Origin: Candidatus Poseidoniaceae archaeon
Lineage (GTDB): Archaea; Thermoplasmatota; Poseidoniia; Poseidoniales; Poseidoniaceae
Assembly (NCBI GenBank): GCA_028822845.1
Contig: JAPKCS010000023.1
Location: 1-34,398 of the forward strand
Length of the DNA stretch: 34,398 nt
Reading direction: 5' to 3'
Notes under the pieces: model-generated
The model's input: only the letters and a program-made list of their open reading frames with translations
Told to the model about the DNA's origin: nothing
Databases searched by the model: none
Shown: positions 17,293 through 27,960 of the stretch, in pieces
Position numbering within the stretch: position 1 is the stretch's first letter
Layout: each line of letters begins with the position of its first letter
Made by a program: the position numbers and the translations under genes

Positions 17293-18318
17293 ATGGCCGC
17301 CCACACTGTGCACTGTGGTGGACACATCACGTTGCTGTTTTCCATTTGGAAGGACTCAAGGTTAGCGCGTTCACAAGGCAGCAGAGGAGCGGGGTTCAAC
17401 GTCAGCGATGGCGTTGAAGCAAGCGTGAAGCACATTGGCACGAATCAGCCAAGCGTACCGCCTCAACTCTCTCAAGGCGCTGCACTTGACGAGCGACCTG
17501 CAACAGTGGAAGATGGTGAAATCCGACTTACAATCGAAGCAATGGATGGCACTTTGATCGAACATTCAACCCACCTTTACACCGATCTAATCGAAGCACT
17601 AAGGGACGCTCGCTTACTCAACAGAGCTGAGGCTTTCGAAGTATCTGTCACCCTCTCTTTGCCAACAAGTCAAGGTTTTGGCATGTCCGCAGCTGGTTTG
17701 GTCGCGGTGTCTCGGGCCTTTCATTTACATTCAGGCTTGGGGCGTGATGAACAATATTTACGAATTGCACATCGTATTGAACGGCTCCACAGCGGTGGAC
17801 TTGGTGACGTGCTTGGCATCGCCGCTGGGGGAGTTGAACTGCGCCTCGAGCCAGGTGCACCCGGATCAGGTGGAAAAACAGTTCAATTCACAACTCAACA
17901 ACCGATCTTACTGGTGTGGAAACCTGAGGAATCGAGGCATACTTCGAATTACATCGATGATCAGAAATGGCAAAAATCCATCTCTGAAGCCGGTGAGGAC
18001 GCTGTTCGAGCCCTACGAGTGAACGAATGGGGCCCCGAAGCATGGCCTGAACTCATGTTGCAATCCAGAACCTTTGCCCAAACCTCAGGGCTGCTCGAAG
18101 AGCCTGAACGGATGGGATTGAATGCAGCAGTTATGGGGCAACTCCGAAAGATGGACCTTCACCCACGCGTGTATGTCCGACTGTGCATGCTTGGAGTGTC
18201 GTTAGTGATCCTCCCGCGACGGTTGGATCAACCGCTAACGCATGAAGAAATTGAGCAGGTCGCTGAAGCGTTGAGAGCCCTCAAGTTAGGGGTTCGTTCT
18301 ACGTCGATTGAGGGATGA
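17293..18318 (+). CDS. Pantoate kinase (GHMP kinase family)
   Basis: Archaeal enzyme that phosphorylates pantoate to 4-phosphopantoate, the first of two steps replacing the bacterial pantothenate synthetase/pantothenate kinase route to coenzyme A. The 341 residues show the family pattern: HCGGHITLLFSIW at the start, GSRGAGFNVSDGVEASV (about 35-52), and the GHMP ATP-binding motif LPTSQGFGMSAAGLVAVSRA (about 124-143), followed by HRIERLHSGGLGDVLGIAAG. The C-terminal part is more variable. The partner enzyme, phosphopantothenate synthetase, is not in the window. Its stop abuts the convergent CDIN1-like gene with no gap. The specific name rests on motif pattern within COG1829-type proteins. Confidence 0.82.
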   Translation: MAAHTVHCGGHITLLFSIWKDSRLARSQGSRGAGFNVSDGVEASVKHIGTNQPSVPPQLSQGAALDERPATVEDGEIRLTIEAMDGTLIEHSTHLYTDLIEALRDARLLNRAEAFEVSVTLSLPTSQGFGMSAAGLVAVSRAFHLHSGLGRDEQYLRIAHRIERLHSGGLGDVLGIAAGGVELRLEPGAPGSGGKTVQFTTQQPILLVWKPEESRHTSNYIDDQKWQKSISEAGEDAVRALRVNEWGPEAWPELMLQSRTFAQTSGLLEEPERMGLNAAVMGQLRKMDLHPRVYVRLCMLGVSLVILPRRLDQPLTHEEIEQVAEALRALKLGVRSTSIEG

Positions 18319-19443
18319 TCAATCGTTGGCGTCAAAAGCCCTCAAATCGAGAACATTGGCATCCAATAACGTGCAACCAGGCATGAATAAATTCTCACTG
18401 AAGCCGTGGCGATAAACAACACCGCCGCTGCCCCATTCTTCGATGTACCTGTCCATTTGCTTCGCCATCTTTTTGCGTTGGAACTCGACATCAGCGCCGT
18501 AAAAGTGCTTGGCATCAATCCATGCAACAGGGCGTTCGTTGATGTAGACATGGTCGAGGAAGAGGATGTCGGGTGTTCGGACTGGGCGCCCGAGTTCCTG
18601 CTTTTGCTCTTTCACCATCTCCGGCTGGCGGCGGAGACGAACGCCTTGTTCTTCGAACCAATCGGCGAGGATGTCTTCAAACAGATCCGCTTTTTCTTGC
18701 GCTTCGCCTTGGTCGACGTTTGACACTCGATCTGCAGCCTCTGCTGTTTCGAATTCCTTTCGTTCGCGCTCCTTCAATCGGCTTGGTTCTCGAAGGCTTT
18801 CCTTGATTTTGGTTTTGGACCAACGCATTTCCGCTAAGATCAAACGGAACACATTCATTGGAGGTCCGTCAAAGCGTTGAGAGATGTCAACAACACTGAC
18901 GCCTTCTTTGTACAACCTGAGCATGTCTTTTGCTCTCGATCTCAATCGTCCGTGCCCGTAGACGGTTTTCTGCTGCATGAGAGCAGAACGAAGTGAGAGG
19001 GCCTGATCGAGGGTCATGTTATGGTTTGCAACGATTAATGCAAGTTCATCGACGCGCTCGTCGTCTAACCATCCGAATTCTCCTTTGCGGAGCACCTGCT
19101 TGGAAAGCGCTTCTTCATCTTTGAGAGGGACAGCAGCGGTGTTCCATGTGAAGTTGAAAGTGCGTGGTTCTTCGATGCCGTCTGGGAAACCCATGGGCGT
19201 ATCTTTGCGAACAAAGCGCTCATCGGCTTTTTTATCCATTGAAGCGATGGTTTCAGCATGACGTTCTTGAAGCAGGGCTTTTGCCGTTCCTCCATATCGT
19301 TTAGGGCGGCGGTTGGAACCGTTTCGATTGGAACGGTTGTTACCCGAACGATTTCGTTGACCACCTCCGTTCTTCGAGGATTTGGGGCTTTTGTCGTCGC
19401 CACTTGGAGTGCTCATTGGTGTCTGTCCGCGCCGAGGCTCCAT
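18319..19443 (-). CDS. CDIN1-like (TPD-motif) predicted PD-(D/E)XK nuclease
   Basis: A 374-residue protein. Residues of about 12-55 are a low-complexity basic tail rich in Asn, Arg, Gly and Ser (QRNRSGNNRSNRNGSNRRPK), probably nucleic-acid binding and disordered. The middle contains a helix-turn-helix-like part (RSRAKDMLRLYKEGVSVVDI, SQRFDGPPMNVFRLIL, about 168-203). The C-terminal domain (about 250-372) has the TPD motif VRTPDILFLD (D292), then VAWIDAKHFYGAD with D310-x-K312, and GSGGVVYRHGF. This set matches human CDIN1 (C15orf41), the codanin-1-interacting predicted nuclease, where TPD, WIESK and FG recur in the same order. Asp292, Asp310 and Lys312 would be the catalytic residues. The ATG at 19443 is chosen; 19416 is an alternative. 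It lies 12 nt after the SRPBCC-like gene, so the two form an operon. Confidence 0.78.
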   Translation of the reverse strand: MEPRRGQTPMSTPSGDDKSPKSSKNGGGQRNRSGNNRSNRNGSNRRPKRYGGTAKALLQERHAETIASMDKKADERFVRKDTPMGFPDGIEEPRTFNFTWNTAAVPLKDEEALSKQVLRKGEFGWLDDERVDELALIVANHNMTLDQALSLRSALMQQKTVYGHGRLRSRAKDMLRLYKEGVSVVDISQRFDGPPMNVFRLILAEMRWSKTKIKESLREPSRLKERERKEFETAEAADRVSNVDQGEAQEKADLFEDILADWFEEQGVRLRRQPEMVKEQKQELGRPVRTPDILFLDHVYINERPVAWIDAKHFYGADVEFQRKKMAKQMDRYIEEWGSGGVVYRHGFSENLFMPGCTLLDANVLDLRAFDAND

Positions 19444-19455
19444 GAACACTCGCTT

Positions 19456-19980
19456 TCATTCTGATTCATCGATAGCGGCTTCAAATGAGGCAGGAATGGG
19501 GATGCTTCCGGCTGTGCAGGCATCGTTTAGCCATTGTTTGGCCATGGCCCGAGGGAGGCGATTGACACGCCCACGCATGAAGCGAGCCCACCATCGAATC
19601 TTCCACCATGCTGCGATTTCAACGCCACCTTCATCCTCGCCCCAAACCGTGACGGCAAGACGGAGGTGGGCGAAGGCAGTCCCAAGCGGTCGACCTTCCC
19701 GTTGTTGACCATCCCACATGAACTCAACTTCGAGAAAACGAGGATCTTCACTTTTCCGGATGCTCTTCACTGTCCACATCTCCTCAATCAAGCGTTGCCG
19801 TTCCACTCGATGGAGATCGAAACGTTGTCCTTCGTGCAGTTCCCCCGTCGCTTCAGATAAGATGCGCCCTGCAGAGGTGTGCCACGATGGCCACCGATCC
19901 AGATTCAAAAGATTGGCCATCACCTGCTCACACTCCTCTGAAGCAAGCGGTTGCCGCCACACACCGTTCGGAGACTCCAT
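19456..19980 (-). CDS. SRPBCC/polyketide-cyclase-like protein
   Basis: A 174-residue soluble protein with the pattern of START/SRPBCC lipid-binding folds: an early helix (EECEQVMANLLNLDRWPSWH), FLEVEFMWDG, then FAHLRLAVTVWGEDEGGVEI, AAWWKIRWW and a long C-terminal helix (RLPRAMAKQWLNDAC). The ligand is unknown. The assignment is from overall pattern, not from a diagnostic motif. The frame is open to a TTG at 20049 but the ATG at 19980 is preferred, which also avoids overlap with the divergent secreted-protein gene. The gene lies 12 nt upstream of the CDIN1-like gene on the same strand, so they are probably co-transcribed. Confidence 0.6.
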   Translation of the reverse strand: MESPNGVWRQPLASEECEQVMANLLNLDRWPSWHTSAGRILSEATGELHEGQRFDLHRVERQRLIEEMWTVKSIRKSEDPRFLEVEFMWDGQQREGRPLGTAFAHLRLAVTVWGEDEGGVEIAAWWKIRWWARFMRGRVNRLPRAMAKQWLNDACTAGSIPIPASFEAAIDESE

Positions 19981-20040
19981 GAAGCGCCGTGGAATGTATT
20001 CTCCTTGAATTTGTGGGATACGAAAGAGGCGGGGTTTCAA

Positions 20041-22797
20041 ATGCAACAAGTCAATCCGAAGAGCATGCGATGCGCGTCGACGGCACTTTTTTCCCTGATT
20101 CTAGTGCTTTCCTCTGTTGCAGGCGGTATCAACAGCGAGGTACAAACCCTCCAAGAACGGGACCTGCCGCAGAGCGTTGGCGATGACAATTCATCTTCTG
20201 AATTGGCCTTTGGTTGGGCCACAAGTGCGGGTGGAGCCCTCGATGATTTCATTTCACAATCTGCCACGTACGCCAACGGGACCATCATCGTCGCCGGGAG
20301 CTATGGAGGCGACATTCAATTCCGTGACCAAATCGATGGACATGGTGCCACTGCTGGGGCAAACGACAGGGATGCAATGCTGGGTTGGATCAATCCAAAC
20401 GGCACATGGAATGCGAGTGTTTCCTTTGGGACATCTGGTCTCGATTCCGTTGAAGCAATCGCTCTTTTACCAAGTGGCGATGTCATCGTAGCCGGCAATT
20501 TTTGTTTGAACACCGTTCGTTCCCCTTGCGAACTCTCTCTTGGAGACCTCGACCCACTTGAAAAGGAAGAGGCGGATGATGACGGAAATGTGTTCCTTGC
20601 TCGGTTGACCAGCAATGGAGTCTGGTCTTGGGCAAAACAATTTGGCAACAGCAATGATAACTTTGTTTTTGACATGATGGTGACCCCTAACAACGAAATT
20701 CATCTTGGTATCCTTTACAGAGGAGAATTGGACTTTAAGGGCGACGTTTTGGAAGGTGGGTCTGAAATGAACTTGATGATCGCCACCTTCAACGAAGCAG
20801 GTGAAGCTCTTTCACACGTGATCATTCGAGGCGAAGAAGGGGTTGAGTCCATTGGCGGCCTGTGTCAAGACGGGGCTGGACAAACCTACGCTGTTGCCAC
20901 GTTTAGCGGCCCATTGATGGTCGGAGAGACCCTTCTGGCTTCGGCAGGCGAGACTGACCTCATGGTTGCATCGTATCAAGCCAACGAATGGATGTGGGCC
21001 GTCTCCGGCGGAGGTGCCTTTGAAGATCGAGCTTGGGATTGCTCAGGTTCTCCGAATCAAGGCCTGAGTGTTGTCGGGGAATTTATTGGCAACGCGAGTT
21101 TTGGTGCATCAACAACCGATGCTTCAAATGGAACAGATATGCTCCTCGCCTTGGTTTCTTCATCCGGAGCATGGACCAGCATCGCGCAAGCGGGAGGCGT
21201 TGGCGTTGACCGCGCAACAAGGGTTGTCACCAGCCCACAAGGCGACATCACAATCACGGGGACCACCACAGCAGGCTTTGTCCTCGGTGAAGACACCCTC
21301 GAAGACTTAGACGATTATAACGACGACACGCACAACGACATATTCCTCGCCACATACTTGGAAAACGGGACATGGGCGTGGGCTGTGTCTGCTGGCGGTG
21401 AAGGGAACGACGAACCAACGGACCTTACCTACGCTCTTGACGGTTCACCACTGCTGACGTTCATGCTCAGTGAAACCGCCAGCATTGGCGTCCACACTGC
21501 AACCAGTTACGGTGGCTATGATGTCGGTGTTTGGCTTTACCAAACAGATCGCGACAACGATGGAATCCTCGACGGTGAAGATAATTGTCCCAGAATCACA
21601 AACACTGCTCAAGGCAACCATGATGGTGACCTTTTCGGCGATGATTGTGACGGTGATGATGACAACGATGGCGTCACAGATGAACTGGATGATTGCCCAA
21701 GCGGCGCTGTATCGTGGACGTCTGATGCTTCATCAGATCACGACAGCGATGGCTGTGAAGATGCTGGTGAGGACTTCGATGATGATGAAGACACCGTGTT
21801 TGATTTCAACGATTTATGCCCTCTTGGACCCGTAGGCTGGATTTCAACCCCTGAAGAAGACAATGAAGGCGACGGATGTGCCGACTTTGATACCGATGAA
21901 GACGGGTACATCGATCAGATGGACAACTGCCCTGAAACAGCTAACTCGGCCCAGGGCGATTTGGACGGGGACGGTTTCGGAGATGCGTGTGATGTTGACG
22001 AAGATGGTGATGGAATCGCTGCACCTGAAGACAACTGTCCGCGCGACATAACCCCTTGGACCTCCACTCCGTTCAACGATTACGATCAGGATGGCTGCTA
22101 TGATGACACCATGGATGTCGATGATGACAACGACGGTTATCAAGACGTCAATGATGCCTGCCCAAGAGGTGAAATCAGTTGGAATAATGATGCCGATGAA
22201 ACCATGGATTTGGAGTTGAATGGGTTGGACCATGACCAAGACGGTTGCCAAGACGCAATTGAAGACGATGACGATGACAACGATGGCGTTCTTGATGCGA
22301 TTGACGCATGCCCCACTGGCCTGATTGGTGTTGCCATGGTTGGACAAGATGCTGATGGTGATGGCTGCATTGATGCCGCCGAAGATGATGACGATGACAA
22401 CGACGGTGTGATCGACGCAATCGATGTATGCCCCCAGACTCCAATCGGAGATCAGGTTGGCATTCAAGGGTGCAGCATAACGCAATTGGACGATGACCTC
22501 GATGGCGTCTCAAACGCTGACGACATGTGCCTCAACAGTTTACCAGGGCGACTCGTCGATGGAAGTGGGTGTGCAATCCTCAACCAAGCCGATGAATCAG
22601 TTTCAAATGAAGCGGATCAAAATGGCCTTACCACCTGGCTGTTCGTCTTCGCAGGTGTGCTTCTCCTTGCTGCAGGCATTGTTGCTTCAAACGGACGAGC
22701 GCTTCCAAAAACTGAAGCAAATGTTACTCCACCAAAGCGGCCTGTTGATCTTGAAGAGGCAACAGACCTTGATGCACCGAGCAACGAGCAAGAATGA
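20041..22797 (+). CDS. Secreted protein with beta-propeller-like and thrombospondin type 3 repeats, membrane-anchored
   Basis: A 918-residue surface protein. It has a signal peptide (about residues 10-35; ALFSLILVLSSVAGG). Residues of about 50-500 carry repeats of the type AGG...D, GDVIVAGNF and GTWSWAKQFG, resembling SBBP/delta-60 beta-propeller repeats. Residues of about 500-845 form a TSP3 array with cysteines (DNDGILDGEDNCP, DGDGFGDACD and similar), a calcium-binding arrangement. A transmembrane helix follows (TTWLFVFAGVLLLAAGIVAS, about 861-880), then a short cytoplasmic tail. Start at 20041 is preferred over upstream codons because GAGGCGGGG precedes it and the signal peptide follows; an ATG at 20068 is an alternative. 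A role in adhesion or particle attachment is inference. Confidence 0.8.
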   Translation: MQQVNPKSMRCASTALFSLILVLSSVAGGINSEVQTLQERDLPQSVGDDNSSSELAFGWATSAGGALDDFISQSATYANGTIIVAGSYGGDIQFRDQIDGHGATAGANDRDAMLGWINPNGTWNASVSFGTSGLDSVEAIALLPSGDVIVAGNFCLNTVRSPCELSLGDLDPLEKEEADDDGNVFLARLTSNGVWSWAKQFGNSNDNFVFDMMVTPNNEIHLGILYRGELDFKGDVLEGGSEMNLMIATFNEAGEALSHVIIRGEEGVESIGGLCQDGAGQTYAVATFSGPLMVGETLLASAGETDLMVASYQANEWMWAVSGGGAFEDRAWDCSGSPNQGLSVVGEFIGNASFGASTTDASNGTDMLLALVSSSGAWTSIAQAGGVGVDRATRVVTSPQGDITITGTTTAGFVLGEDTLEDLDDYNDDTHNDIFLATYLENGTWAWAVSAGGEGNDEPTDLTYALDGSPLLTFMLSETASIGVHTATSYGGYDVGVWLYQTDRDNDGILDGEDNCPRITNTAQGNHDGDLFGDDCDGDDDNDGVTDELDDCPSGAVSWTSDASSDHDSDGCEDAGEDFDDDEDTVFDFNDLCPLGPVGWISTPEEDNEGDGCADFDTDEDGYIDQMDNCPETANSAQGDLDGDGFGDACDVDEDGDGIAAPEDNCPRDITPWTSTPFNDYDQDGCYDDTMDVDDDNDGYQDVNDACPRGEISWNNDADETMDLELNGLDHDQDGCQDAIEDDDDDNDGVLDAIDACPTGLIGVAMVGQDADGDGCIDAAEDDDDDNDGVIDAIDVCPQTPIGDQVGIQGCSITQLDDDLDGVSNADDMCLNSLPGRLVDGSGCAILNQADESVSNEADQNGLTTWLFVFAGVLLLAAGIVASNGRALPKTEANVTPPKRPVDLEEATDLDAPSNEQE

Positions 22798-22843
22798 ACT
22801 CAAGTGGATAGTTCTTCTACATTCAACCCAAGTTGTGCCATCT

Positions 22844-22854
22844 GTTAAATAAAA
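22844..22854 (+). promoter_or_regulatory. TATA box placed for a leaderless transcript
   Basis: GTTAAATAAAA lies about 21-31 nt before the ATG at 22875, within the 77-nt gap after the preceding gene. The AT-rich element stands out in a roughly 50% GC background. Transcription would start near the ATG; no Shine-Dalgarno sequence is seen. Confidence 0.55.
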
Positions 22855-22874
22855 AAAGACACGCATCGAAGATT

Positions 22875-25046
22875 ATGAAGTCTGGTTTAAGGGTCATCTG
22901 TGTTCTTTTGATGATGATGATGATTGCATCCGTTCCTACAATTGATGCAAATTCCACAGGTAAAACTGGTTCCAGCGCCAATGGGTGCACGTGCCATACC
23001 ACCGACGCAATGATCGTGCCAACGATGACTGGATTGCCTTCATCCTATACCCCTGGGACAACATACTCCCTCACGTGGACCGGAAGTGCATTGTCGGCAA
23101 CTGGTGAAGGAGGATTTAACCTCGACGCAACCAGTGGAACGTGGTCAAACTTGGGTCAACGGGTCAAATCTGTTGGCGGTGAATTAACCCACAGTTCGGA
23201 TTTACAGCGCTCGTGGTCCGCTGATTGGGTCGCGCCTGCTGTTGGAACTGGCACTGTTACAGTCAATCTTGCAGTCTTGTATGCAAACGGAAATTCCGCC
23301 AACTCGAATGACAACTGGGGGACAAACTCATGGACGGTCGCAGAAGGTGCAGTCGCTTCCAACACAGCTCCTGTTGCATCCGATGTCAAGATTGGCATTG
23401 CTGCTACTCAGGGTGGACCTGTCACGGAGGCATTTGTCAACGAAGACCTCCTTCTCTCATACACCTTTGATGATGATGATGGAGATTCCGATTCCAACTC
23501 CCAAATCCGCTGGTCAAAAGACGGCGTTGCCGTTCCACAACACAATGATGTGACCACACTGCCAGCTTCAGCCACCTCTGTAGGCGACGTTTGGACTGCT
23601 GCGGTCACGCCAAACGATGGTCAAGACCTCGGTTCATCGGTTGCGGCGATCAACTCCGTGGATATTCTCGATGTTGATACCGATGGCGATGGCTTTGGAG
23701 ATGCAAGCGACGCCTTCCCTGACGACCCAAATGAACATGCTGATTCTGATTCAGATGGTGTTGGAGATAACGGCGATCAATTCCCAAACGACGCCTCTGA
23801 AACCATGGACACTGACGGCGATGGTGTTGGTGACAACGCTGATGCGTTCCCCGACGATGCAAGTGAATCTGCGGACAGTGACAGCGATGGCGTTGGCGAC
23901 AATACTGACGCCTTCCCTAACGATCCTGACGAAACCGTCGACACCGACGGTGATGGCGTTGGTGACAACAGCGATGCGTTCCCACTCGACGCTTCTGAAT
24001 CAAGTGACTTTGACGGCGATGGTGTTGGCGATATTGCTGATGTGTTCCCGAACGACGCTTCTGAAACCATTGACACGGACATGGATGGAACCGGTGACAA
24101 TGCAGACGTGTTCCCAGAAGACGCTTCCGAATCGATGGATTCTGATCTCGATGGTGTTGGAAACAACGCTGATGCGTTCCCTAACGATGCAAATGAAACG
24201 ACTGACACCGATGGTGATGACGTTGGCGACAACACTGATGCGTTCCCCAACGATGCAAATGAGACCCTCGATTCCGACATGGATGGAATGGGTGACAACG
24301 CTGATGCTTTCCCCAACGATGCCAATGAAACCACCGATTCAGATATGGACGGCGTAGGAAACAACGCTGATGCGTTCCCTAATGACGCAAGTGAGACCCT
24401 CGATTCCGACATGGATGGAACGGGTGACAACGCTGACGCATTCCCTGAAGACGCTTCTGAAACCATGGACACTGACGGCGATGGTGTTGGTGACAACGCT
24501 GATGCTTTCCCCACCGACGCTTCGGAAACGATGGACACCGACGGTGATTTGGTTGGCGACAACGCTGACTGGGCACCAAACAACGCCATGGAATCTGCAG
24601 ACAGCGATGGAGACGGCATGGGTGACAACGCTGATGCTTTCCCAACCGATGCTGAGGAAACACTCGATACTGATGGTGATGGTGTCGGTGACACCACGCA
24701 AGCGGCGCTTGAAGCGGCGGCGGCTAAAGACGCCAAAGCCAAAAGAAACATGATGATCATCGCTGTGCTTGTCGTTGGCTTGATCGGTGGTGGAGCAGTT
24801 CTCTTCCTTCGAAGTAAAAAGGACTCAGAGGAACCTGTGAAGACCTTTGATCAGCAACCGATGGCAGCACAACAGCGGTCGATTGCAATGGTTCAGCCTG
24901 CGGCGGTTGCTTCAGCGGTTGTGCAGCCCGTGGTCGAAGAACCGACGGTTCTGCGACAATGGACCGATGAATCCGGATACACCTGGAGAGCCATGAGCGA
25001 TGGCGTGAACTACTGGTGGACTGGAACCGAGTGGCAACGGTCCTGA
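22875..25046 (+). CDS. Secreted protein with choice-of-anchor-V-like domain, long 22-residue TSP3-type array, membrane anchor and WW-like C-terminus
   Basis: A 723-residue surface protein. The signal peptide (about 1-25; VICVLLMMMMIASVP) is followed by a domain starting NGCTCHTTDAMIVPTMTGLP and continuing YTPGTTYSLTW (about 36-160), resembling the choice-of-anchor V/Reelin-like domains. An Ig-like segment follows (about 165-260). Residues 268-597 are fifteen consecutive 22-residue units of the type DTDGDGVGDNADAFPNDASE, then a sixteenth partial one. A transmembrane helix (about 626-645; MMIIAVLVVGLIGGGAVLF) leads to a cytoplasmic tail that ends in an aromatic motif, DESGYTWRAMSDGVNYWW then TGTEWQ. 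The start at 22875 is set by the signal peptide and TATA spacing. The stop abuts the LeuRS stop on the other strand. Confidence 0.82.
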   Translation: MKSGLRVICVLLMMMMIASVPTIDANSTGKTGSSANGCTCHTTDAMIVPTMTGLPSSYTPGTTYSLTWTGSALSATGEGGFNLDATSGTWSNLGQRVKSVGGELTHSSDLQRSWSADWVAPAVGTGTVTVNLAVLYANGNSANSNDNWGTNSWTVAEGAVASNTAPVASDVKIGIAATQGGPVTEAFVNEDLLLSYTFDDDDGDSDSNSQIRWSKDGVAVPQHNDVTTLPASATSVGDVWTAAVTPNDGQDLGSSVAAINSVDILDVDTDGDGFGDASDAFPDDPNEHADSDSDGVGDNGDQFPNDASETMDTDGDGVGDNADAFPDDASESADSDSDGVGDNTDAFPNDPDETVDTDGDGVGDNSDAFPLDASESSDFDGDGVGDIADVFPNDASETIDTDMDGTGDNADVFPEDASESMDSDLDGVGNNADAFPNDANETTDTDGDDVGDNTDAFPNDANETLDSDMDGMGDNADAFPNDANETTDSDMDGVGNNADAFPNDASETLDSDMDGTGDNADAFPEDASETMDTDGDGVGDNADAFPTDASETMDTDGDLVGDNADWAPNNAMESADSDGDGMGDNADAFPTDAEETLDTDGDGVGDTTQAALEAAAAKDAKAKRNMMIIAVLVVGLIGGGAVLFLRSKKDSEEPVKTFDQQPMAAQQRSIAMVQPAAVASAVVQPVVEEPTVLRQWTDESGYTWRAMSDGVNYWWTGTEWQRS
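23676..24665 (+). repeat. Array of fifteen 66-bp tandem repeats coding calcium-binding-type units
   Basis: Fifteen units of exactly 66 bp, each coding 22 residues with the core D-x-D-x-D-G-x-G-[DN]-N-x-D-x-F-P-x-D, run without any length change; a partial sixteenth follows from 24666. Units 3 and 13 are nearly identical in nucleotide sequence for a long stretch, which suggests recent duplication or gene conversion. The DxDxDG core is the calcium-binding loop of TSP3/EF-hand-like repeats. Unlike the neighbouring gene's repeats, these lack cysteine. Confidence 0.9.
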
Positions 25047-27869
25047 TCAGGCATAGACAACGGATGGTGAAAGGGGCATAGCGCCTCCAGCCCGGCCAGT
25101 ATCGTCGTGCTCCGATTCGCCCAGCACAACACGGACTTCAGAAAGGCCGAGTTCTTCTGCGAGGAAGGACGCACGTTGTGAGAGCGATTGAACCTCATCT
25201 AATTCACTGCGAATCAGAATCCTTGATGCGTCGTCCCATTTGAACACTTGAGGCAGCATTTTCTTGCCCCAGAAGCCCATGATTTCGCCTTTCCGATCTC
25301 CTTGGGTGATCTCCATTTGACTGAGAACAGCAACAAATTGCTTCGGATTTCCGCCCTGTTCGAGGAATTCAAGAGCGCGGACAGCAAGTTGACGCTTCCA
25401 TGTTGGAGCCACAATGATGGTTGCTGTTTTTGCTGGTTCATCCAGATGTCGCTCTGCGACATCCTTGATTTTACGAGCGGACTCGAGGAAACTACGAGCC
25501 GTTGTTTCACCATCGAGCGCAGTTTGCTCTTCTGCAGTGATGGAGTCGATACTGGGCATTTCTGCACCGCTGATGAGTCCATCCATACCGAGCACGGCCC
25601 ACCACTCTTCAGCGAGGTGCGGTGTCGAAATTGAGAGCAGATAGGCCCAATGCTTGAGGACTTTTGGAGCAAGGTCTGCGTTGTTCCCGCCTCGGCGGAT
25701 GTACCAATTGACGTCCTTGACCAGCTCATAGTGCGATACCTCGACCGCACGGCGCAAATCATACCCATCCATTGCCGATTGGAATTCTTCAATCCTTTGC
25801 TTCAAGCGACCTTCGAGCCAGACATCCATTGAATTGGAACCTCCAGTCCAGCCAAGCAAGCGCTCAGGCATGCCGTACAATTGCATCATCACTTTGTAAT
25901 TGGCTTCCAATGCTGTGTCAGACCAGTCCATTCCTGCTGTTGGATTGGCGGCGAAGAGAATGAACAATCGAACCGTGTCTGCGCCAAAACGCTCGATCAT
26001 GTCTTCTGGTGAAACGGTGTTGCCCAAGGATTTGCTCATTTTTGCTGAGCGTTCAGTAAGGACACCTTGGCAGTGTGGGCATGGCGCACCGCCATGATCG
26101 ACGGAAAAGGTGAGGCTGCACACTTCGCACCAAGGGGCTGCTTTGTTGACCATGCCTTGGCACAAGAGTTCGTTGAAAGGTTCGTCGATGTTATGCAAAC
26201 CTAAGTCGCGAAGTGCCTTGGTCCAAAACCGAGCGTAAATGAGATGCATCTGTGCGTGTTCAATACCGCCGCAATAGAAATCGACGTTCATCCAGTGGTC
26301 GGCCTTCACTTCATCGAAACATATGTCGTCGTTCAGTGCATCTGTGTAACGCAAGAAGTACCATGAGGAATCAACGAATGTGTCCATCGTGTCGGTTTCT
26401 CTTCGTGCGGCTTGGCCGCATGTAGGGCAATCAGCAGCGAGGAACGAGGCAGATGTTTCCAACGGATTGCCTTGGCCAAACACCACATCTCGTGGCAGTT
26501 CAACGGGTAAATCTGCAGCAGGCACAGGCACAGCACCGCACCCATCGCAGTGTATTACTGGAATTGGAGTGCCCCAGTACCGTTGTCGTGAAACCAGCCA
26601 AGGGCGGATTTTCCAATTGATGGTTTGGAGGCCAACACCCTTTGCTTCGAGCGCTTTGACGACAGCTGATTTTGCTTCATCGCCATACAGACCATCAAAT
26701 CCTTCGAGTGGGCTGTTGACCATCCAGCCCAGATCGCTTTCAGCCTTCTTGAGATCTTCATCTGCATCGCCATCCTGCTTCATCATCAGGACCCGGCGAA
26801 TTGGGATGTCGTAGGATTTTGCAAAGTCGAAATCACGTTCATCGTGGCCAGGGACAGCCATCACAGCACCTGTTCCATAACTGGCGATGACGAAGTTCCC
26901 TGCCCACATCGGGATCTTCTCCCCGGTGAGGGGATGAATCGCATTGACACCAAGAGGCACGCCGCGCTTTTTGTTCATGTTCTTGATTCGGTCAAATTCA
27001 CTCATCACTGAAACTTCATCATGCAGGTCGCGCCAATCGGATTCGAAAGGCGTCCCCTCAACAAGAACAGCGGCGAGTGGGTGTTCGGGTGCGAGTGTGA
27101 CGAACGTTGTGCCGAACAATGTGTCAGGGCGCGTGGTGAACACGGTGAGTTCTTCATCGCGCCCATCGATGGCAAAGGTGATCTCTGCACCCTCTGAGCG
27201 ACCAAGCCAATCCCGTTGAAGTGATTTCACATTTTCAGGGAAGGCAATGGTGTCCAAGCCGTCAACAAGTTCCTGGGCATACTTTGGGATGTCGAGGAAC
27301 CACTGGCTCATTTCTTTCTGTTGCACTGGCCCGTTGCATCGCCAGCATCGTCCTGCTTTGACCTGTTCATTGGCTAAAACGGTCTCACATTGAGAGCACC
27401 AGTTAACGGGAGCAAATTTCTGATACGCCAAACCTTGTTCCATGAACTTGGTGAAAAACCACTGATTCCAACGGTAATAGCGAGGGTCATGGCTCTTTAC
27501 TTGCCTTCGCCAATCATAGGAGAACCCCATGCGTTTGATTTGCTCAGTGATGGAAGCCATGTTGCGTTCAGTGATGTCATGCGGATGAGCGTTTTCTTTG
27601 ATTGCTGCATTTTCTGCAGGCATACCGAAAGAGTCGAAACCCATTGGGTAAAGAACATCAAAGCCCATCATTCGCTTGTAACGGGCGACAGCGTCACCAA
27701 TCGAGTAGTTCCGGACGTGCCCCATGTGCATTTTACCACTTGGATAAGGGTACATCTCAAGGCAGTAGAATTTCGGCCGATCATCACGCGAATCGCGTTC
27801 GAACAACTGCGCTTCGTTCCACCTTTTTTGCCAAAGGAGTTCGGAATCTGGAGTAAAAAGAATGCTCAT
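25047..27869 (-). CDS. leuS: Leucyl-tRNA synthetase, bacterial type
   Basis: Charges tRNA-Leu. The 940-residue class I synthetase has the HIGH motif as YPSGKMHMGHVRNYSIGD (HMGH at 48-51) and KMSKS at 610-614. An editing (CP1) domain is present (TTRPDTLFGTTFVTLAPEHP, GTGAVMAVPGHDERDFDFA). Candidate zinc clusters are NWCSQC...CWRCNG and CDGCGAVPVP...CPTCGQ. The wording of these segments, for example RRETDTMDTFVDSSWYFLRY and MPAENAAIKENAHP, is that of bacterial LeuRS and not of the archaeal/eukaryotic form. The frame is open to 27947, but the ATG at 27869 is preferred because AGGTGAG precedes it and bacterial LeuRS homology begins there. It is divergent from the GHMP kinase, with 91 nt between. 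Confidence 0.95.
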   Translation of the reverse strand: MSILFTPDSELLWQKRWNEAQLFERDSRDDRPKFYCLEMYPYPSGKMHMGHVRNYSIGDAVARYKRMMGFDVLYPMGFDSFGMPAENAAIKENAHPHDITERNMASITEQIKRMGFSYDWRRQVKSHDPRYYRWNQWFFTKFMEQGLAYQKFAPVNWCSQCETVLANEQVKAGRCWRCNGPVQQKEMSQWFLDIPKYAQELVDGLDTIAFPENVKSLQRDWLGRSEGAEITFAIDGRDEELTVFTTRPDTLFGTTFVTLAPEHPLAAVLVEGTPFESDWRDLHDEVSVMSEFDRIKNMNKKRGVPLGVNAIHPLTGEKIPMWAGNFVIASYGTGAVMAVPGHDERDFDFAKSYDIPIRRVLMMKQDGDADEDLKKAESDLGWMVNSPLEGFDGLYGDEAKSAVVKALEAKGVGLQTINWKIRPWLVSRQRYWGTPIPVIHCDGCGAVPVPAADLPVELPRDVVFGQGNPLETSASFLAADCPTCGQAARRETDTMDTFVDSSWYFLRYTDALNDDICFDEVKADHWMNVDFYCGGIEHAQMHLIYARFWTKALRDLGLHNIDEPFNELLCQGMVNKAAPWCEVCSLTFSVDHGGAPCPHCQGVLTERSAKMSKSLGNTVSPEDMIERFGADTVRLFILFAANPTAGMDWSDTALEANYKVMMQLYGMPERLLGWTGGSNSMDVWLEGRLKQRIEEFQSAMDGYDLRRAVEVSHYELVKDVNWYIRRGGNNADLAPKVLKHWAYLLSISTPHLAEEWWAVLGMDGLISGAEMPSIDSITAEEQTALDGETTARSFLESARKIKDVAERHLDEPAKTATIIVAPTWKRQLAVRALEFLEQGGNPKQFVAVLSQMEITQGDRKGEIMGFWGKKMLPQVFKWDDASRILIRSELDEVQSLSQRASFLAEELGLSEVRVVLGESEHDDTGRAGGAMPLSPSVVYA

Positions 27870-27960
27870 CGACTCACCTGTGCCCTGCGGGATACCCTTG
27901 CCACAGACCCACTCGTCTTGAATGCCACTCTTCATGAGGTTGCCCAAACTGCGCTATGGT

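Follow-up and report, generated by a model that had tools for sequence, protein, structure and literature searches.

The question raised by this locus is what a relative of human CDIN1 (C15orf41) does in Poseidoniales (Marine Group II), and whether the SRPBCC-like gene beside it points to that role. Mutations of human CDIN1 occur in congenital dyserythropoietic anaemia type I (PMC7261414). The same paper describes a predicted HTH and PD-(D/E)XK layout, a D196A variant and nuclease tests that failed, no cleavage being seen in those that included a fragment of codanin-1. According to PMC13370696 no activity has been published for it, and PMC11911400 states that none of the substrates has been conclusively linked to it. 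C15Orf41 orthologues have been reported in Euryarchaeota and, in that account, not in other archaeal phyla (PMC7092493), and archaea and viruses are mentioned for the CDIN1 family in PMC6519365. Our literature search returned nothing on CDIN1 in Marine Group II, on C15orf41 in Thermoplasmata or on SRPBCC proteins in Poseidoniales. Archaeal homologues of CDIN1 are known; what our analysis adds is a marked clade-level variant in Poseidoniales and an optional SRPBCC neighbour.

A near-universal TPD gene in Poseidoniales

The preliminary description of the window (the whole 34,398-nt stretch of DNA analysed here) assigned the protein to the TPD family and proposed a Pfam search. This search returned TPD (PF14811) over residues 226-354 with an E-value of 1.7e-18 and a score of 67.2 bits (cut-off 27), and membership of the window protein in the family is firm. 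Profile–profile comparison with canonical TPD proteins gave a probability of 99.85 and an E-value of 1e-30 over 237 columns from residue 129 on, an alignment that takes in the HTH region. The closest relative with a name, uncultured Candidatus Poseidoniales FRAM18_bin109, was 97 % identical over the segment that matched best, and the MG-II chromosome CM001443.1 was 82 % identical.

The ORF is intact, with 376 codons from GTG 19449 and 374 from ATG 19443. The latter start is used here and agrees with the earlier numbering of D292, D310 and K312, all three of which are present; GTG 19449 and ATG 19416 are the alternatives. The methionine at residue 10 (ATG 19416) was kept in at least 90 % of 57 aligned rows, and on this comparison ATG 19416 may be the true start. 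The 12 nt described between the SRPBCC-like gene and the TPD gene is correct for ATG 19443 and becomes 39 nt for ATG 19416. An Asn/Arg/Gly-rich basic tail had also been described: a basic stretch exists, but at the N-terminus and not at the C-terminus. Residues 1-70 have a pI of 11.5 and a charge of +8.6, and residues 1-42, with pLDDT below 50 in the AlphaFold2 model, are predicted to be disordered. The pI of this head was at least 9.5 in 102 of the 105 Poseidoniales rows measured; of the 12 non-Poseidoniales rows listed, 11 have a head of 0-3 residues.

Among 194 genomes drawn from the phylum, PF14811 was matched in 103, comprising 46 of 48 Poseidoniales and 57 others, with scores of 64.6-82.0 bits in the former vs 130.5-168.3 bits in the latter. 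An order-wide draw found it in 225 of 243 Poseidoniales genomes (222 above the cut-off), as one match in 218 and two in 7 of the 225. The remaining 18 genomes, many of them incomplete, gave no Pfam TPD match; a more sensitive Poseidoniales profile (A2) found TPD in three of these, each time as part of the protein (G368, 286 bits; G130, 184 bits; G343, 49 bits). The gene is thereby shown to be near-universal in the order, and it is mostly single-copy and of housekeeping type. One Poseidoniales genome carries, beside its usual copy, a second match with a canonical score (G322:C28:296-694, 134.6 bits), which is possibly contamination.

Table 1. Positions of the features in the window, with the evidence for each
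Feature	Position	Strand	Evidence
GHMP kinase, pantoate-kinase-like, convergent neighbour	17293..18318	+	Pfam GHMP_kinases_N 7.1e-8; NCBIfam pantoate kinase 80.6 bits
TGATCA palindrome, in which the GHMP kinase and TPD stop codons abut tail to tail	18316..18321	.	Sequence
TPD-family protein gene (archaeal CDIN1 relative)	18319..19443	-	Pfam PF14811 and own-genome match; 374 aa from ATG 19443
Nuclease-like core, residues 245-361	18361..18711	-	Model secondary structure; Pfam TPD span 226-354
W308-I-D310-A-K312 motif	18508..18522	-	D310 in 107/107 Poseidoniales vs E in 34/34 others; K312 in 141/141
T290-P291-D292 motif	18568..18576	-	T and P in 107/107; D in 106/107 (one X); all three in 34/34 others
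E256, putative catalytic Glu, first core helix	18676..18678	-	E in 107/107 Poseidoniales and 34/34 others
HTH-like helix pair, residues 184-205	18829..18894	-	AlphaFold helices 184-191 and 195-205; within the stretch aligned to canonical TPD
Basic low-complexity N-terminal head, TPD residues 1-54	19282..19443	-	pI, pLDDT, row comparison
SRPBCC-fold protein, 174 aa	19456..19980	-	AlphaFold pLDDT 91.2; Foldseek PDB (PR-10 and PYL); family alignments

Active site and predicted fold

The active site was compared in 107 Poseidoniales rows, namely the window and the 106 loci left from 125 after removal of identical 200-residue ends, and in 34 further rows consisting of the best 30 of 57 non-Poseidoniales matches and four from Marine Group III; these rows are related by descent and are not independent events. 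E256, T290, P291, W308, D310, A311, K312, F314, G316, Q329 and Y333 occur in all 107 Poseidoniales rows and D292 in 106, the remaining one being an unreadable X. The conservation in close relatives expected of the putative catalytic residues D292, D310 and K312 was therefore borne out, bar that one X. Position 313 holds H (106 rows) or N (one row), and position 315 holds Y (91 rows) or F (16 rows). In the 34 further rows, by contrast, the residues at 310, 313 and 315 are E, A and F without exception, and that at 311 is S (33 rows) or C (one row).

The resulting signature is DAK(H/N)F(Y/F)G in Poseidoniales vs E(S/C)KAxFG in the 34 relatives compared, and the WIDAK...FYG of the window protein is a departure from the usual family sequence. 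Canonical archaeal TPD proteins have the TPD motif, W-x-x-x-K, the invariant E, Q and Y and the HTH region in common with it, but differ in this signature and in the long basic head of the Poseidoniales proteins. Their second motif, E-(S/C)-K, was replaced by D-A-K in every one of the 107 Poseidoniales rows. The wider PD-(D/E)XK motif permits D or E. Because of this, and because the score for the TPD family was reached, D-A-K is a variant of the family and not a reason for exclusion; the alignments show a clade-specific variant of the predicted active site. With the clade-wide E-to-D and A-to-H differences, nature supplies variants by which the residues that determine activity could be identified.

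In a tree built from 46 selected rows, with a midpoint root that serves display alone, the Poseidoniales formed one clade (support 100/100; stem length 2.97 changes per column). Family f1, to which the window belongs, did not form one clade, and the second family was nested inside it, a placement that would count against regarding strictly vertical descent as established.

The AlphaFold2 model, built from 57 rows, has a mean pLDDT of 85. It places helices between residues 128 and 238, which, together with the canonical TPD alignment, agree with the HTH-like region described ahead of the nuclease-like domain. The core follows as a helix (245-265), strands (293-295, 298-301 and 308-312), a helix (320-337) and strands (340-344 and 357-361). 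This helix-strands-helix-strands order is one that we take to fit PD-(D/E)XK topology, and E, D and (D/E)xK follow one another in it as in that fold, by residue order, invariance and secondary structure.

The proposed PD-(D/E)XK fold agrees with residue order and secondary structure; comparison with solved structures stayed below significance, Foldseek against the PDB giving no match at E 0.001 and the restriction enzyme BbvCI as first row (E 0.7, probability 0.20). A sequence search of the PDB gave no match at E 1; the profile search had its lowest E-values at 0.4 or above, and none of its matches was called a nuclease. On the model, a PD-(D/E)XK nuclease fold is likely for the core.

Predicted viral structures (BFVD) gave three Foldseek matches below 0.001, the best being the unnamed A0A8F8SNR0 (E 3.1e-24, 27 % identity over 291 columns), followed by a TPD domain-containing protein of Powai lake megavirus (E 1.3e-10) and a mimivirus 'CDAN1-interacting nuclease 1' (E 3.0e-8). 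The viral TPD proteins A0A167RJG3 and A0A2L2DJP4 and the unnamed A0A8F8SNR0 resemble the window protein in fold over 205-291 columns (E 3.0e-8 to 3.1e-24), but differ from it in having only 16-27 % identity and an rmsd of 3.7-8.9. Searches of viral contigs with the single protein gave eight stretches with the peptide pattern, and those with mixed, Poseidoniales-only and canonical alignments gave 12, 61 and 18, none of which was confirmed as a relative. For phage records, tblastn returned nothing at E 1, whether the query was the window protein or a canonical TPD protein.

Proposed role and competing explanations

The explanation that we find probable, though well short of certain, is that this near-universal TPD protein, with its basic head, HTH region and PD-(D/E)XK-like domain, is a putative nuclease in genome or RNA maintenance. 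The basic head and HTH region would attach to DNA or RNA, which the core would cleave by means of a divalent metal coordinated by E256, D292 and D310 and with the help of K312. The maintenance step served would need no histones and would not replace Hjc. Nuclease activity itself, which we infer from the conserved residues, is the weakest step of this reading. The TPD family could be non-catalytic, because the tests of human CDIN1 described in PMC7261414 detected no activity and PMC13370696 says that none is published, and a catalytically dead regulator that binds nucleic acid would also suit the HTH-like region and basic head of the window protein. We hold such a regulator to be unlikely, as regulation alone would not demand that every one of the 107 rows keep E256, D310 and K312, and all but the row with an X keep D292.

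A Holliday-junction resolvase like Hjc has been brought to mind by the resemblance of human CDIN1 to archaeal Hjc stated in PMC7261414, and outside Poseidoniales Hjc was absent from 17 of 57 genomes with TPD vs 12 of 89 without it (Fisher p 0.02); this anti-correlation was set aside, as the test ignores kinship. In Poseidoniales a separate Hjc (PF01870) was found in 47 of 48 genomes, including a copy in the window's own genome (G000:C1:68406-68765), so that TPD as the sole resolvase does not fit; 45 of the 48 have both. The TPD protein had no Hjc match in Pfam at E 1, and hhalign of TPD against Hjc reached a probability of 0.7 % at best. With an Hjc set of 29 of 30 fetched loci, whose ORFs were chosen by a short motif, the pooled TPD set gave E 0.079 for Hjc, 0.12-0.65 for ten unrelated controls and 0.91 for Cas4-like proteins. 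Hjc compared with the Poseidoniales-only (E 0.42) and canonical-only (E 0.17) TPD sets fell within the range of the controls. The WIDAK of the window protein falls on the Hjc IEVKSS motif in an alignment that is itself non-significant. Kinship of TPD with Hjc and with Cas4-like proteins was rejected, as the profiles show no significant link, and a resolvase role is distinctly unlikely.

A part in nucleosome or histone metabolism has been proposed around human CDIN1, which binds codanin-1, itself a binder of the histone chaperone ASF1 according to PMC7261414 and PMC11911400. The histone fold (PF00808) was matched in 15 of 194 genomes of the phylum and in 9 of the 103 with TPD, leaving 94 of the 103 without a match, among them the window's own, which sets it apart from the setting of human CDIN1. 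In Poseidoniales it went undetected in 46 of 48 genomes, the other two giving weak matches, one of them below the curated cut-off, although absence from incomplete genomes is not proof of absence from the cell. Histone supply therefore does not fit as the role of TPD in this order, and we consider it barely credible. A defence system was also rejected, the TPD protein having no PADLOC match at E 0.1.

The putative nuclease thus draws its main interest from the invariant D-for-E site across the Poseidoniales rows compared, from its near-universality and from histones being undetected in most of the TPD genomes sampled. A near-universal archaeal relative with putative catalytic residues, in genomes where histones are mostly undetected, suggests that the family's original job may be separable from histone supply. 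CDIN1, as described in PMC7261414, shares with it the predicted HTH and PD-(D/E)XK layout and has archaeal orthologues in print (PMC7092493). The Poseidoniales TPD protein would be a simple one for assays on the activity of the family.

Neighbours of the TPD gene

The SRPBCC-like ORF spans 19456-20049 on the minus strand from a TTG, and the start common to its relatives is ATG 19980, in agreement with the end coordinate of the preliminary description. Foldseek of its model against the PDB returned PR-10, PYL and similar proteins with E-values from 4e-5 and 49 matches at E ≤0.001; the helix-grip-like fold held in common with the SRPBCC superfamily (PR-10, PYL, TTHA0849) had a probability of 1.00 and a TM-score of 0.40-0.62 on the query, and the preliminary identification of this gene as SRPBCC-like is supported accordingly. 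Pfam gave no family at E 0.01 in 40 members of the neighbour's family, and for the window gene the best was Polyketide_cyc2 (E 0.067), below the cut-off.

The gene was present in 61 of 243 genomes of the order and in 5 of 22 genera (profile A4), and the matches listed all fell in family f1. In 59 of the 61 genomes it lies on the TPD strand and ends at most 718 nt ahead of the TPD match; the exceptions were G121, where the two lie 4,420 nt apart, and G064, where no TPD was found beside it. SRPBCC adjoined TPD in 56 of 106 distinct loci; all 56 are among the 84 loci of the window's family, and the 22 of the second family had none, the 84 coming largely from the best 80 matches to the window protein and so leaning to near kin. 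Nineteen of the 56 adjacent pairs have a 4-nt overlap, and the spacing in a further 35 is -1 to 70 nt, as measured with the TPD start taken from the longest ORF. The pair that had been described is therefore real and co-directional, but its adjacency was not kept across Marine Group II when surveyed (61/243 genomes; 0/22 loci of the other family). As only 61 of 243 genomes have the gene, all in one family, SRPBCC is an optional neighbour and, for part of that family, an operon partner that can be dispensed with.

The suggestion that the partner may hint at the biology of TPD is accordingly a weak pointer, being patchy and confined to one family; the SRPBCC protein is possibly a ligand-sensing or stabilising accessory. 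A closer tie would make the two proteins one functional module, with SRPBCC taking up a hydrophobic ligand and acting as gate or stabiliser of the nuclease. This would agree with the location of the gene directly ahead of TPD in 59 of its 61 genomes, with overlaps and short gaps that fit translational coupling, and with a predicted fold of ligand-binding type. We find it doubtful, as TPD is in 225 of 243 genomes and SRPBCC in far fewer, the other family has a DCC1-like gene at that place in 9 of 22 loci, and the genes of G121 and G064 are not paired. Decidedly improbable is the joint reading that, in Poseidoniaceae, SRPBCC is a ligand-binding gate of the TPD nuclease and that the Poseidoniales active site (DAKHF-G) is re-tuned for another substrate or metal than that of canonical TPD; if true, this would mean a ligand-controlled CDIN1-type nuclease in cells without detected histones.

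The stable neighbour of TPD is the convergent GHMP kinase gene, not SRPBCC: in 101 of 106 loci it abuts, overlaps or lies within 20 nt (gaps of -50 to +20), and two of the five exceptional loci (L049 and L112) have no more than 142 nt of DNA beyond TPD. Both own-genome matches of the NCBIfam pantoate kinase model fall within this gene (17293-18318), whose score of 80.6 bits is far short of the equivalog cut-off of 380 bits. The layout was followed gene by gene in 30 Poseidoniales loci (22 of the second family and eight of the first), with names taken from one representative each. Leucyl-tRNA synthetase is encoded no more than five genes upstream of TPD in 25 of the 30, and the gene for RNA polymerase subunit D just past the GHMP gene in 26, often followed by S11, S4 and S13. 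The gene that precedes TPD in 9 of the 22 second-family loci encodes a DCC1-like thiol-disulfide oxidoreductase (e.g. L055:7336-7674). This lasting synteny indicates that the arrangement is old, and it does not imply interaction of the products.

In the window the TPD–GHMP pair is kept, and the genes beyond it differ (DUF805, peroxiredoxin-like, Lrp-like, enolase). Two large Asp-rich repeat protein genes adjoin SRPBCC at 19951-25046, the first with TSP_3 repeats (Pfam), and past them lies a gene at 25047-27947 (minus strand) that reads in translation as leucyl-tRNA synthetase. Outside Poseidoniales no conserved TPD neighbour was found in the loci laid out, from which four of 20 fetched (L164, L177, L178 and L179) were dropped because gene calling gave no TPD there; a pyridine nucleotide-disulphide oxidoreductase, a Cas4-like gene and others reappear inside individual groups only. 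The Cas4-like PD-(D/E)XK gene, identified from a scan of the L163 copy (L163:6794-7780), follows TPD on the same strand in four of these outgroup loci (L163, L165, L166 and L167).
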